A stretch of 35,307 bases of DNA from a virus. The notes below the pieces were generated by a model that saw only the letters and a list, made by a program, of their open reading frames with translations, ran no database searches and was not told the DNA's origin. The position numbers were made by a program, and so were the translations under genes. The stretch lies in IMG/VR virus record IMGVR_UViG_3300042545_001295, positions 1 through 35,307 of that record; one strand, 5' to 3'. Of the stretch, positions 18,276 to 31,382 are shown piece after piece. Numbering within the stretch: position 1 is the first letter of the stretch; the number at the start of each line of letters is the position of its first letter.

Positions 18276-18857
18276 ATGAAAATATCATTCGTAGGAAAAA
18301 AAATCAACCAATTAACTATTTTAGAGCACGTTTCATATCGCAGAGTTAAAGTTAAATGTGATTGCGGTAAAGAAAAAGAATGTGATTTTTATGATTTAAA
18401 AAGAAATAAAATTAAAAGTTGCGGATGTGCAAAAAATACACCAGAACTTAGAGAGTTAGCTAGAAAAAGAGCATATAAATTAATAGAGATTGGCTCATTC
18501 AATAGAGGTGGCGATTTACATTCAAAAGAATTTAGAGATTTTAAATATATTTTTAAGTGTATAAAAAATAAAAATAGAAAATCTTCAAATATCACCTTGG
18601 AAGATTTAAAAGATTGTTGGGATAAGCAACATGGTAAATGTGCATATACCAATACACTTTTGATATTACCAACACATAAAAATCATAAACTTGAAGTTCC
18701 AAATTGGAGAGTAGCATCAGTAGATAGAATAGATTCTAATCTAGGATATATTAAAGACAATATTCAATTTGTCAGTAGAACTATAAATTATGCAAAACAT
18801 ACAATGAAACATGACGATATGATCAATTTTATAAATTTTATAAAAAATATTGGGTAG
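18276..18857 (+). CDS. HNH homing-type endonuclease, 193 aa
   Basis: The N-terminal half has a CDCGKEKE...SCGC zinc-binding cluster (about residues 29-51), common in phage HNH proteins. The C-terminal half has GKCAYTN and VASVDRIDSNLGYIKDNIQFVSRTIN (about 145-170), the HNH-type catalytic region. It sits between tmRNA and tRNA-Tyr, and its last codon and stop (GGG TAG) are the first bases of the tRNA. Likely a free-standing mobile endonuclease, possibly cutting tmRNA or tRNA loci in related phages. Confidence 0.82.
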   Translation: MKISFVGKKINQLTILEHVSYRRVKVKCDCGKEKECDFYDLKRNKIKSCGCAKNTPELRELARKRAYKLIEIGSFNRGGDLHSKEFRDFKYIFKCIKNKNRKSSNITLEDLKDCWDKQHGKCAYTNTLLILPTHKNHKLEVPNWRVASVDRIDSNLGYIKDNIQFVSRTINYAKHTMKHDDMINFINFIKNIG

Positions 18858-23632: not shown

Positions 23633-24292
23633 TCACACTACTTCCACGTAGTCTGTCTTGGATGCTTCTAATTTAGAAGTAACTAAATGTGTGATAAAAT
23701 CGAGATATTTTTGAGAATTTGATTCTTTAAAACGTTTTTGCTGACTTGTGTTTATAACATATAATTCTATTTTATTTTCTATACATGCTTGAAGTTTTTT
23801 ATTATCATTTTCTTGAATTTGATTTAATTTATCTTCTCCGAAAATAGGTTCATAATGAAACAATCCATTAATTTCAAAAGCTAATTTCAAAGAAGGTATA
23901 TAAATATCAAGTTCAGAATCTATAACATTTTTACTTGAATAAGTAATTTCTAAATCTGGATATAAAATAAATAATTGTTTTTCTAACCATTTTTCTAACT
24001 TTGATCTACGAATTCCTTTGGTTTTGTGAGTGTTATTATATGTAGCTGAACATGATCTAGAACAAAAATTATTTGGAGTTTTTTCAATTTCTTTTGTATG
24101 TTTTTCAAATAATATTTCACAGTTAAGACATTTGACTTCTGTTTTAGGAGAGTGACCCCTTGATTTTAATCTACATATTGAGCTACAATAAATACCAATT
24201 CCAAAATTTTTTTTTCTACTTCTTCTATTTTTCCATGAATTAACACCCACTTCAAAATTACAATCGCATCTATCACATGTAAGAAATTTCAT
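23633..24292 (-). CDS. Vsr/PD-(D/E)XK-type endonuclease with N-terminal zinc clusters, 219 aa
   Basis: N-terminal CxxC pairs (CDRCDCNFEV...CSSIC; CLNC...CSRSC) are followed by a restriction-fold core: SKLEKWLEKQLFILYP, ELDIYIPSLKLAFEINGLFHYE, then NDNKKLQACIENKIELYVI. The D...E-I-N-G pattern fits Vsr-like/EDxHD homing nucleases. The start at 24292 is set by a TAAATA box 5 nt upstream on this strand. It lies antisense behind tRNA-Leu, between copies of the tRNA 3' end. A mobile endonuclease. Confidence 0.75.
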   Translation of the reverse strand: MKFLTCDRCDCNFEVGVNSWKNRRSRKKNFGIGIYCSSICRLKSRGHSPKTEVKCLNCEILFEKHTKEIEKTPNNFCSRSCSATYNNTHKTKGIRRSKLEKWLEKQLFILYPDLEITYSSKNVIDSELDIYIPSLKLAFEINGLFHYEPIFGEDKLNQIQENDNKKLQACIENKIELYVINTSQQKRFKESNSQKYLDFITHLVTSKLEASKTDYVEVV

Positions 24293-24297
24293 ACTAA

Positions 24298-24303
24298 TAT
24301 TTA
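24298..24303 (-). promoter_or_regulatory. TAAATA late-promoter-like box of the Vsr-like gene
   Basis: On the - strand TAAATA, 5 nt (TTAGT), ATG 24292. Confidence 0.55.
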
Positions 24304-24319
24304 TTCCAAAAGATACATT

Positions 24320-24339
24320 TTCGACCCCGACCGTGGCTA
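24320..24339 (+). repeat. direct repeat, displaced tRNA-Leu 3' end
   Basis: Identical to 23603-23622 and followed by CCA (24340-24342). It looks like the original CCA-encoding end of tRNA-Leu, displaced about 700 bp by insertion of the endonuclease element. Confidence 0.9.
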
Positions 24340-24347
24340 CCATCTAT

Positions 24348-25524: not shown

Positions 25525-25743
25525 GTGAAAGAATATATGAAAATACTTGCACCAAACTTTGAAGACATGGAATCTGTTCTTGATTCTTGCGGTCACGAAC
25601 TAATCAATGAAGTTAATATTGCTTATGAAAAACTTGGCAAAGATAATCTTTGGGAGTTGACAGATAAGTTCCTACAGTTTCAACGCCTCCTTCATGAACA
25701 AATCAAAGAGATTTTCCCAGATCACGACTTTAAAAACTTCTAA
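25525..25743 (+). CDS. hypothetical protein, 72 aa, GTG start
   Basis: A helical acidic protein (MKILAPNFEDMESVLDSCGHELINEVNIAYEKLGKDNL). The GTG at 25525 fits the promoter spacing; the in-frame ATG at 25537 is an alternative. It ends 10 nt before tRNA-Arg. Confidence 0.65.
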   Translation: MKEYMKILAPNFEDMESVLDSCGHELINEVNIAYEKLGKDNLWELTDKFLQFQRLLHEQIKEIFPDHDFKNF

Positions 25744-25753
25744 TAAGTTTATT

Positions 25754-25828
25754 GCGCCTATAGTTAAAAGGATATAACCTCGGTTTTCTAAACCGATATT
25801 TCAAGTTCAATTCTTGATGGGCGCACCA
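25754..25828 (+). tRNA. tRNA-Arg (UCU)
   Basis: Acceptor GCGCCTA/TGGGCGC, anticodon stem TCGGT/ACCGA, loop TTTCTAA (TCT), T-loop TTCAATT, encoded CCA. Confidence 0.92.
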
Positions 25829-25834
25829 ATTTTA

Positions 25835-26644
25835 TTATTCAATAGATTTTGACCATCCACATTTTTTATAAGCAGAAAAATCTATTCGTTTGATATTTTT
25901 TGTTTTTTTATCTTTAAAAATTGTAATTGTTTTATCTGTAATATATTGTATCGCATTGTAGCACTTTTTAGAACAATACATTGAATCTAAAATTGGAACA
26001 TATGAAACGCCACAATGTAAACAAATATAAGGTTCTTTGATTTTATCATTTTGTGAATTATTAATATTTTTTTCTTTCTTCATAGAAATTATTTTTTCAG
26101 CTTTATCATTTCTACGTTTTTCTCTTTCGAGTTTACGTTTTTCTTTTTCAAGTTTTTTAATTTCAAAACCATCCCAATTAATAATTCTACCTTCTTCCCA
26201 CTCAAAAGGAATCTCTAATTCAACTGAAATCTTCTTATTTTGTTTGGTATGTTTGTTATGAATCCATCTTGTATTTTTTTGACTATTGTTTATAGTTTGT
26301 GTTTCTGAAGCAATTCTAGCATATTTAACTTTCATTTTTTCAAACAATCTTCCGTTTACCCTGTAATCTCGTCCACTGTGTTGACACCAAGACATCCAAC
26401 ACCAAGCTCTTATCATTTTACTTGTTTTGAATTTATTCCCTTTGAACATTTTAGTTAACAATAAATGGCATATGAAATGCTCTCTCGCAGTAAGCCTAAC
26501 AATATTCGAACATTCATCTGAACCCCCAATGCTTTTTGGAACTATGTGATGTTTTTCTGAATATCCAATTGGTTGATTTTGCTTTCGATTGTTTATAATA
26601 TTAAAATACCATTTACTATATTTTGTATCTTCTAATTCATTCAT
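25835..26644 (-). CDS. HNH endonuclease, 269 aa
   Basis: The N-terminal nuclease segment is GYSEKHHIVPKSIGGSDECSNIVRLTAREHFICHLLL (about residues 27-63), a typical phage HNH with the HH pair. A long Lys/Glu coiled coil (LEKEKRKLEREKRR) and a CLHCG...YCSKKC zinc finger follow. Start 26644 lies 5 nt after a TAAATA box. The gene ends 6 nt from the 3' end of tRNA-Arg, in antisense orientation. Confidence 0.85.
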   Translation of the reverse strand: MNELEDTKYSKWYFNIINNRKQNQPIGYSEKHHIVPKSIGGSDECSNIVRLTAREHFICHLLLTKMFKGNKFKTSKMIRAWCWMSWCQHSGRDYRVNGRLFEKMKVKYARIASETQTINNSQKNTRWIHNKHTKQNKKISVELEIPFEWEEGRIINWDGFEIKKLEKEKRKLEREKRRNDKAEKIISMKKEKNINNSQNDKIKEPYICLHCGVSYVPILDSMYCSKKCYNAIQYITDKTITIFKDKKTKNIKRIDFSAYKKCGWSKSIE

Positions 26645-26649
26645 ACTAG

Positions 26650-26655
26650 TATTTA
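26650..26655 (-). promoter_or_regulatory. TAAATA late-promoter-like box of the HNH gene at 26644
   Basis: On the - strand GATAAATA, 5 nt (CTAGT), ATG 26644. Confidence 0.58.
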
Positions 26656-26678
26656 TCACTTAGAAGTATTTATTGTAA

Positions 26679-26700
26679 TAATAAAAAACTAGATTAATAT
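26679..26700 (+). promoter_or_regulatory. A6CTA promoter-like box upstream of 26707
   Basis: TAATAAAAAACTA, GAT, TAATAT, 6 nt, ATG. Confidence 0.75.
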
Positions 26701-26706
26701 ACTGAC

Positions 26707-26868
26707 ATGCAAACTGACACAATTGAACAAACAATCGAGAAACTTCTTGAAACTGTTCGTGATCTGTCTCACATCATTCAAGTGTCCATCGAGCGTGGTG
26801 GCATTATCAAGAATGATATGAGAGAAGAGTTTGAAACTACAATGAATAATCACTATAACCAATACTAA
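26707..26868 (+). CDS. small protein, 53 aa, first of a tandem paralogous pair
   Basis: Reads MQTDTIEQTIEKLLETVRDL then SHIIQVSIE and ends MNNHYNQY. The neighbouring gene at 26873 has the same layout (TIEQLLATIRDLSELTQVTI...MDKHNNQY), so the two arose by duplication. A helical protein of unknown function. The start is fixed by the promoter box 6 nt upstream. Confidence 0.7.
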   Translation: MQTDTIEQTIEKLLETVRDLSHIIQVSIERGGIIKNDMREEFETTMNNHYNQY

Positions 26869-26872
26869 TAAT

Positions 26873-27049
26873 ATGGATACTGCGGAACAAACAATTGAAC
26901 AATTGCTCGCAACTATTCGGGATCTTTCAGAACTCACTCAAGTAACAATCAATTCACTCAAACCCGATATTAGTCTATTTGATGATTCCTCAAATATATT
27001 TCAAGAGAGGTTCAACGCTATCATGGATAAACACAACAACCAATACTAA
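26873..27049 (+). CDS. small protein, 58 aa, paralogue of the preceding gene
   Basis: MDTAEQTIEQLLATIRDLSE is followed by a more divergent middle and the shared ending MDKHNNQY. It starts 4 nt after the previous stop with the same AATAATATG junction used again before the next gene. Conservation of both ends with a diverged middle suggests both copies are functional. Confidence 0.68.
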   Translation: MDTAEQTIEQLLATIRDLSELTQVTINSLKPDISLFDDSSNIFQERFNAIMDKHNNQY

Positions 27050-27053
27050 TAAT

Positions 27054-27317
27054 ATGTTTTTTAATCTTTTTAATCTTTTTAATCCTAAAAGACGAGTAGT
27101 CATTGAGCATAATATCACCTCAAATATTGATGGTGAGAGATTCCCACCAGTAGTTATTAATGAAAGTTATTGGGGTGCAGATTTTGATATCTACAATGGC
27201 GACACTCTTATCCACGACGATGGTGAGTACGGCAACATCCCTGTTACTTTCCACCAGACATTCTTGACCACTCGCATGACAGACGAGCAACTTCTCCGTA
27301 AATACAGAAACAAATGA
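27054..27317 (+). CDS. hypothetical protein, 87 aa
   Basis: N-terminal MFFNLFNLFNPKRR is hydrophobic then basic (possible membrane contact). The rest is an acidic soluble part (GADFDIYNGDTLIHDDGEYGNIPVTF). The longer frame from 26979 would overlap the preceding gene, so 27054 is preferred. It overlaps the next gene as ATGA. Confidence 0.65.
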   Translation: MFFNLFNLFNPKRRVVIEHNITSNIDGERFPPVVINESYWGADFDIYNGDTLIHDDGEYGNIPVTFHQTFLTTRMTDEQLLRKYRNK

Positions 27318-30692: not shown

Positions 30693-30777
30693 ATGAGCAG
30701 TTCATCAAAGAGTAAAGGCGGTGTCAAAACCGTGTAGCTAAAATAAAGCAAGAGACGCAAGAATATAGCGAAACGAC
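30693..30777 (+). pseudogene. degenerate duplicate of the 31248 small basic gene
   Basis: The first 41 nt copy the start of the gene at 31248 with three or fewer changes (MSSSSKSKGGVKT). It stops at TAG after 14 codons. Beyond the stop, fragments similar to the rest of the gene continue (AAGCA, ACGCAAG, ACGA in the same order). It ends just before the TAAATA box of 30789. Confidence 0.65.
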
Positions 30778-31247: not shown

Positions 31248-31382
31248 ATGAGTAGTTCATCAAAGAGTAAAGGCGGTGTCAAGACCGTTCAATGGTGGAA
31301 GCATCTACGCAAGTACTGGAGACGAGTACAGAATAAGCGTGTGCGTAAAGATGGTAAGAAAGAAATACATAAAGAACTCTAA
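31248..31382 (+). CDS. small very basic protein, 44 aa
   Basis: MSSSSKSKGGVKTVQWWKHL then RKYWRRVQNKRVRKDGKKEI. It is rich in Lys/Arg and Trp, so it is likely a nucleic-acid binder. A degenerate second copy lies at 30693. The last codons are part of the next promoter variant. Confidence 0.68.
   Translation: MSSSSKSKGGVKTVQWWKHLRKYWRRVQNKRVRKDGKKEIHKEL

Follow-up and report, generated by a model that had tools for sequence, protein, structure and literature searches.

Gene organisation of the locus

The two mini-genes considered here lie next to each other in a virus fragment of 35,307 nucleotides (IMG/VR record IMGVR_UViG_3300042545_001295; 32.7% GC), referred to below as the window. Mini-gene A (26707..26868, + strand) codes for 53 aa and mini-gene B (26873..27049, + strand) for 58 aa, and both reading frames of the paralogous pair are in place, as the initial annotation had them. 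The site is bordered on the left by a gene coding for a 72 aa product (25525..25743, + strand) and on the right by a gene coding for an 87 aa product (27054..27317, + strand), which is also the right border in seven relatives. The pair directly adjoins a homing endonuclease gene and a tRNA-Arg (TCT) gene (25754..25828, + strand). The free-standing endonuclease gene (25835..26659, − strand) starts with GTG, appears to be of the HNH type by eye and matches phrog_655 (E 5e-36, residues 6-230 of 274); no Pfam match was found at 0.001. Besides these genes, the window encodes RIIA-like and RIIB proteins, ThyX and UvdE. A T4-type major capsid protein was found in the near relatives G002 and G003 (E ~1e-85; two of the seven records tested), so the proposed accessory-region placement is supported, in a T4-type phage.

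Endonuclease-like genes at 23633-24343, 18276-18857 and 25835-26659 directly adjoin the tRNA genes Leu, Tyr and Arg, respectively; the identity of the last one rests on the profile match, while the first two are endonuclease-like by eye. The genes at 23633-24343 and 25835-26659 are absent from the matching stretch of the relative L003.

Mini-gene A is preceded by a promoter-like motif of its own, TAATAARAAACTARAWTA (26679..26696, + strand), located 10 nt 5' of its ATG. Scanning of the whole window with up to three mismatches allowed has found 30 such sites, among them 26679, 24987 and 30040, all on the + strand and none on the − strand, while five shuffled sequences gave 1 to 5 matches. An ATG follows exactly 10 nt past the motif at 13 of the 30 sites. 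The motif resembles either a phage promoter whose transcripts would have very short leaders or a signal for translation. Elsewhere in the window, the start MSSSSKSKGGVKTV of a 44 aa gene at 31248 (31248-31382) recurs 555 nt upstream (30693-30737), where it forms a stump of 14 codons closed by a stop of its own.

Homology of A and B

A and B were confirmed to be true homologues. Their BLOSUM62 local score is 103, whereas the highest among 2000 shuffles was 49, and tblastn with A against the window recovers B (E ~3e-9); the shared start and H-NQY end of the two proteins, from which the pair had been recognised, are therefore real. Amino acid identity is 43-56% depending on the aligner. These are the only mini-gene copies in the 35-kb window. 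Chance reading frames were ruled out, since the substitutions favour synonymous sites.

The similarity is not limited to the coding sequence. The 3' DNA common to A and B is AACCAATACTAATAATATG, in which the final three letters already serve the next gene as start codon, and identity extends beyond the stop codon into the spacer TAATAATATG. The 3' end of A together with the linker (CCAATACTAATAATATG; 26859..26875, + strand) closes on the start codon of B, and its repeat 3' of B (27040..27056, + strand) closes on the start codon of the next gene.

The site in related phages

We compared the site in seven viral-contig records, L003-L005 and L015-L018. B alone (98% aa identity) is located straight after tRNA-Arg in L003, L004 and L005, a single different allele, D, occupies the site in L018, and L015, L016 and L017 have no mini-gene there. 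Since L003, L004 and L005 are identical across 1.3 kb around the site, they may represent one phage; L003 and L004 differ further upstream. Counting the window, the number of copies at the site is variable (0, 1 or 2).

The empty L017 and the occupied L018 differ by a clean 166-nt indel placed exactly between 9-bp repeats AATAATATG, which include the start codon; the flanks of the two records are 98.4% identical on the left (741 nt) and 91.3% on the right (380 nt). The ATG-to-ATG period is 166 nt for both D and A and 181 for B. The 9-bp repeat is a part of a longer imperfect one, ACCAAT[A]CTAATAATA. The tRNA trailer (ACCAATCTAATAATA) also resembles the 3' end of each cassette (ACCAATACTAATAATA): of 5000 single-base shuffles, the observed score was reached in 17 for A, 19 for B and 85 for D, while the scores of two controls were reached in 1153 and 463; the value for D is modest, and AT-rich spacers repeat easily.

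A transposon-type origin, with the 9-bp repeat as a target-site duplication, was considered and set aside. The D unit has no terminal inverted repeats (no exact one of at least 6 bases in its outer 30 nt), and linker annealing accounts equally well for deletion and stacking. No stable stem-loop was predicted in the 50 nt around each of the three linkers, the folding energies being -0.8 (D), -0.1 (A) and 0 (B) kcal/mol.

The block replaced in the window

The window and L003 match at about 98% on either side of the site, whereas the block in between, from 25744 to about 26860, differs. This block (25744..26860, approximate borders, strand unassigned) holds tRNA-Arg, the homing endonuclease gene and A, in place of which the relatives have a tRNA and the linker only. 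It is absent from the site in all seven relatives, three of them near identical, and the endonuclease gene was not found elsewhere in the 5-10 kb examined of each. Both HEG-plus and HEG-minus alleles (with and without the homing endonuclease gene) therefore exist at the site.

The tRNA-Arg gene of the window is unlike its counterpart at the same site in relatives: alignment with that of L003 gives 50 identities, 20 mismatches and 10 gap positions. The window has one tRNA-Arg, and the homing endonuclease matches only itself there. Among the seven loci carrying relatives of the endonuclease (L006-L012), none has a tRNA in the stretch examined, and none of these records contains a mini-gene; a general link of this endonuclease family with tRNAs is thus not seen, which counts against the import of A proposed below. 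Neither a donor phage with A nor any other copy of A was found in the viral contigs, in a search which may exclude the records nearest to the window's own genome.

Three distinct tRNA-Arg(TCT) or tRNA-like sequences were observed at this one site (25744-27053): that of the window, that of L003, L015 and L016, and that of L017 and L018. This suggests repeated replacement of the tRNA between the 72-aa and 87-aa genes. The gene of L018 (3736-3810, identical in L017) is tRNA-like, with the anticodon TCT and a long variable region, and seems to lack the D arm. When tested in L018, it scored 41 bits with the Rfam tRNA model and was not called by ARAGORN; the term for a D-armless phage tRNA was absent among the literature matches listed.

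Conserved ends, diverged core and selection

Codons for the residues that B and D share were compared along the gene. They are identical at 8 of 8 positions in the start and 6 of 6 in the end, against 1 of 10 in the core, i.e., 14/14 for the combined ends versus 1/10 for the core (Fisher P 8e-6); the core comparison covers few codons (10) and rests on a gapped alignment. In the two genes flanking the site in the records with B and D, 111 of 123 such codons are identical. Since synonymous codons are identical in the ends of B and D, these are conserved as DNA and not only as protein. A core saturated with changes between ends conserved at synonymous codons points to recombination, and since the pattern holds at synonymous sites, recombination at the ends would explain it better than selection on the centre alone. 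The diverged centre noted initially does exist in the cores of the alleles.

At its 3' end, A follows the same pattern, with identical same-residue codons at 4/4 positions compared to B and 6/6 compared to D; the 5' end of A gives 3/6 with either allele, and the core of A versus B gives 5/15. The HYNQY end seems not to be required and is apparently dispensable, because a copy of D in an unrelated contig has another C-terminus (SHMERMGA) and the paralogue C also ends differently (both described below).

The initial annotation had proposed diversifying selection. By the NG86 method, dN is below dS in all six pairs computed, the cores of A, B and D being too diverged to measure: two copies of D give dN 0.026 and dS 0.190, three close pairs of C dN 0.008-0.048 and dS 0.094-0.129, two diverged types of C dN 0.318 and dS 0.884, and two copies of B dN 0.007 and dS 0.029, the last from one change of each kind. 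Homologues of the mini-genes were found. Selection is purifying wherever it is measurable, contrary to that proposal.

Relatives of the mini-genes in other phages

A profile search has located D in a 13,066-base contig (L024/L041). In L041 it matches the D gene of G007 nearly in full, over 156 nt at 95% DNA identity, including about 17 nt upstream of the start, and comparison with G001-G003 gives 38-39-nt pieces matching the start of B. Besides the D gene, no other match of L041 at E<=1e-3 was found among nine T4-type records. Since the contig has 47% GC and encodes exonuclease VIII-like/RecE-like, RecT-like and virion proteins, it belongs to a different kind of phage with an annealing system of its own. 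No endonuclease gene was seen beside D among the five genes of L041 tested.

C is a distant paralogue of 54 aa that all seven relatives carry, located at another site in G001-G007 and also present in G014 and G015, which were found using C itself as a query. Searches of GenBank phages gave no usable match for the DNA of the region, B, C or D (B retrieved 13 records, all with E 7 and in unrelated genes), plasmids gave none for D, and no convincing relative was found in GTDB genome contigs with the family profile or D; for proteins this short the reach of these searches is limited, and the records nearest to the window were possibly excluded.

Protein properties

With pI values of 4.2-4.7, the products of A, B, C and D are all acidic. 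An AlphaFold model of B is a two-helix hairpin (residues 2-28 and 33-56; mean pLDDT 82, pTM 0.64). Foldseek searches of BFVD and PDB found nothing at E<=0.001, as expected for a plain hairpin, and the best match among PDB sequences had E 0.12. A and B have no significant match in Pfam and PHROGs, and ten members of the family have no convincing family match in PADLOC, PHROGs and NCBIfam. The best library matches, TIGR00153 (8.4e-5, 4 of 10 members), PDC-M24B (0.0023, 2 of 10) and phrog_9216 (0.0026, 4 of 10), were judged to be short helical similarity and set aside. The mini-gene protein could be a binder of a host or defence protein, acting in host takeover or counter-defence, a role that we put forward as a guess, at slightly below even chances.

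Origin of the A/B pair

We consider it probable that A and B are accessory mini-gene alleles at a recombination hotspot, A being imported and B resident. The hotspot would lie, in a group of T4-type phages, between the tRNA-Arg gene and the conserved 87-aa gene. Copies of the short linker bound each resident copy; since the linker contains the start codon, annealing there could remove a cassette, add one or stack one on another and leave the neighbouring gene intact. A would have arrived together with a different tRNA-Arg and the homing endonuclease gene as a single block, the right-hand joint of which fell in the linker. The simplest route may be homing with co-conversion, a related phage carrying A at the site serving as the donor. 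We infer the homing step, since no donor phage with A was found; annealing, the donor and the function are likewise deduced from sequence. A most likely represents an import placed before the resident gene and not a fresh duplication, because it lies in a block missing from all seven relatives; many synonymous differences also show that A was not copied from B recently.

The same strand, the same spacer and the ends in common would all fit tandem duplication in place, followed by divergence under diversifying selection as counter-defence factors. We find this very unlikely: L003, 98.7% identical to the window over 2.9 kb, has B with one synonymous and one other change and yet lacks A, A is accompanied by a homing endonuclease gene and another tRNA, and dN is below dS where measurable. 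A recent tandem duplication was rejected on the low identity of synonymous codons between the cores of A and B. The opposite history, where tRNA-HEG-A-B was the ancestral arrangement and the relatives lost the endonuclease gene and A by linker deletion, is somewhat less improbable, as the linker repeat permits clean deletion and zero-copy relatives exist. However, the layout of the window looks derived, because all seven relatives share the plain tRNA-linker layout, whether with B, D or neither, and the tRNA has been replaced too.

The mini-genes could be carried along neutrally by homing endonucleases and recombination and serve no important function, a reading suggested by the directly adjoining endonuclease gene, the lack of a recognised domain and the existence of zero-copy phages. 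We rate its chances as low and about equal to those of the ancestral arrangement, since the dN of D, compared between two unrelated phages, and that of C at its site are both well under dS, and D occurs in the unrelated contig with no endonuclease gene seen beside it. A helper of translation which protects or uses the adjoining tRNA-Arg would fit with the position of the site, which in the window and all seven relatives follows a tRNA-Arg(TCT) or tRNA-like gene (in L017 by sequence identity), and an account of phage T6 indicates that HEG-bearing tRNA loci of phages can be anti-defence loci (PMC13096335). The tRNA is nevertheless kept in zero-copy phages, and this role seems as doubtful as in-place duplication.

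Comparison with known systems

In T4, homing endonuclease genes replace flanking DNA in mixed infection; SegB sits between tRNA-Arg and tRNA-Ile, and SegF and SegG are free-standing as well (PMC2988022). The window resembles SegB co-conversion as it is described there, having a homing endonuclease gene beside tRNA-Arg in a T4-type phage and replaced flanks. SegB is listed there as GIY-YIG, whereas the endonuclease of the window matches phrog_655 and is HNH-type by eye; unlike the T4 examples, the tract in the window appears to have brought a mini-gene, stacked before its resident homologue. In phage T6, SegB is described as amplifying anti-defence loci, including a tRNA (PMC13096335). In both cases one locus combines an endonuclease gene and a tRNA with additional gene copies; the whole tRNA and endonuclease segment repeats in T6 as outlined in that source, while tRNA-Arg and the endonuclease gene are single in the window, and A and B are old, diverged homologues. 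No SegB-type near-identical tandem segment with an endonuclease gene was found in the window.

PeSL cassettes are described as exchanging small genes among T4-like phages (Arbiol 2010 and Comeau 2014, as cited in PMC4503421). There too, small accessory genes are separated by short common sequences that direct the shuffling of modules. The joint of PeSL is described as a promoter and stem-loop, whereas in the window a 9-nt linker that includes the start codon forms the joint; no PeSL signature was found, as the three linkers have no stable stem-loop and the promoter-like motif is located before A only. The present case resembles the homing endonuclease and PeSL systems but differs in a start-codon linker without a stem-loop and in the stacking of diverged alleles. 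Among the literature matches listed, none was usable for such mini-gene cassettes.

Implications

A broader reading, which we offer as speculation and believe to be improbable as a whole, is an integrase-free phage cassette system. In it, a start-codon linker would bound mini-genes of about 55 codons, which would be stacked, swapped or lost by short-homology annealing and would pass singly from one phage to an unrelated one. The two-helix proteins thus supplied would be exchangeable, and their variable cores might bind different host or defence proteins.

Among the small accessory genes of phages, orphans of untraceable origin are common. At the site between the 72-aa and 87-aa genes, gain and stacking of such genes are directly testable, because the empty, single and double states and the copy in an unrelated phage are all visible, and the start-codon linker offers a simple means of seamless insertion that can be checked.
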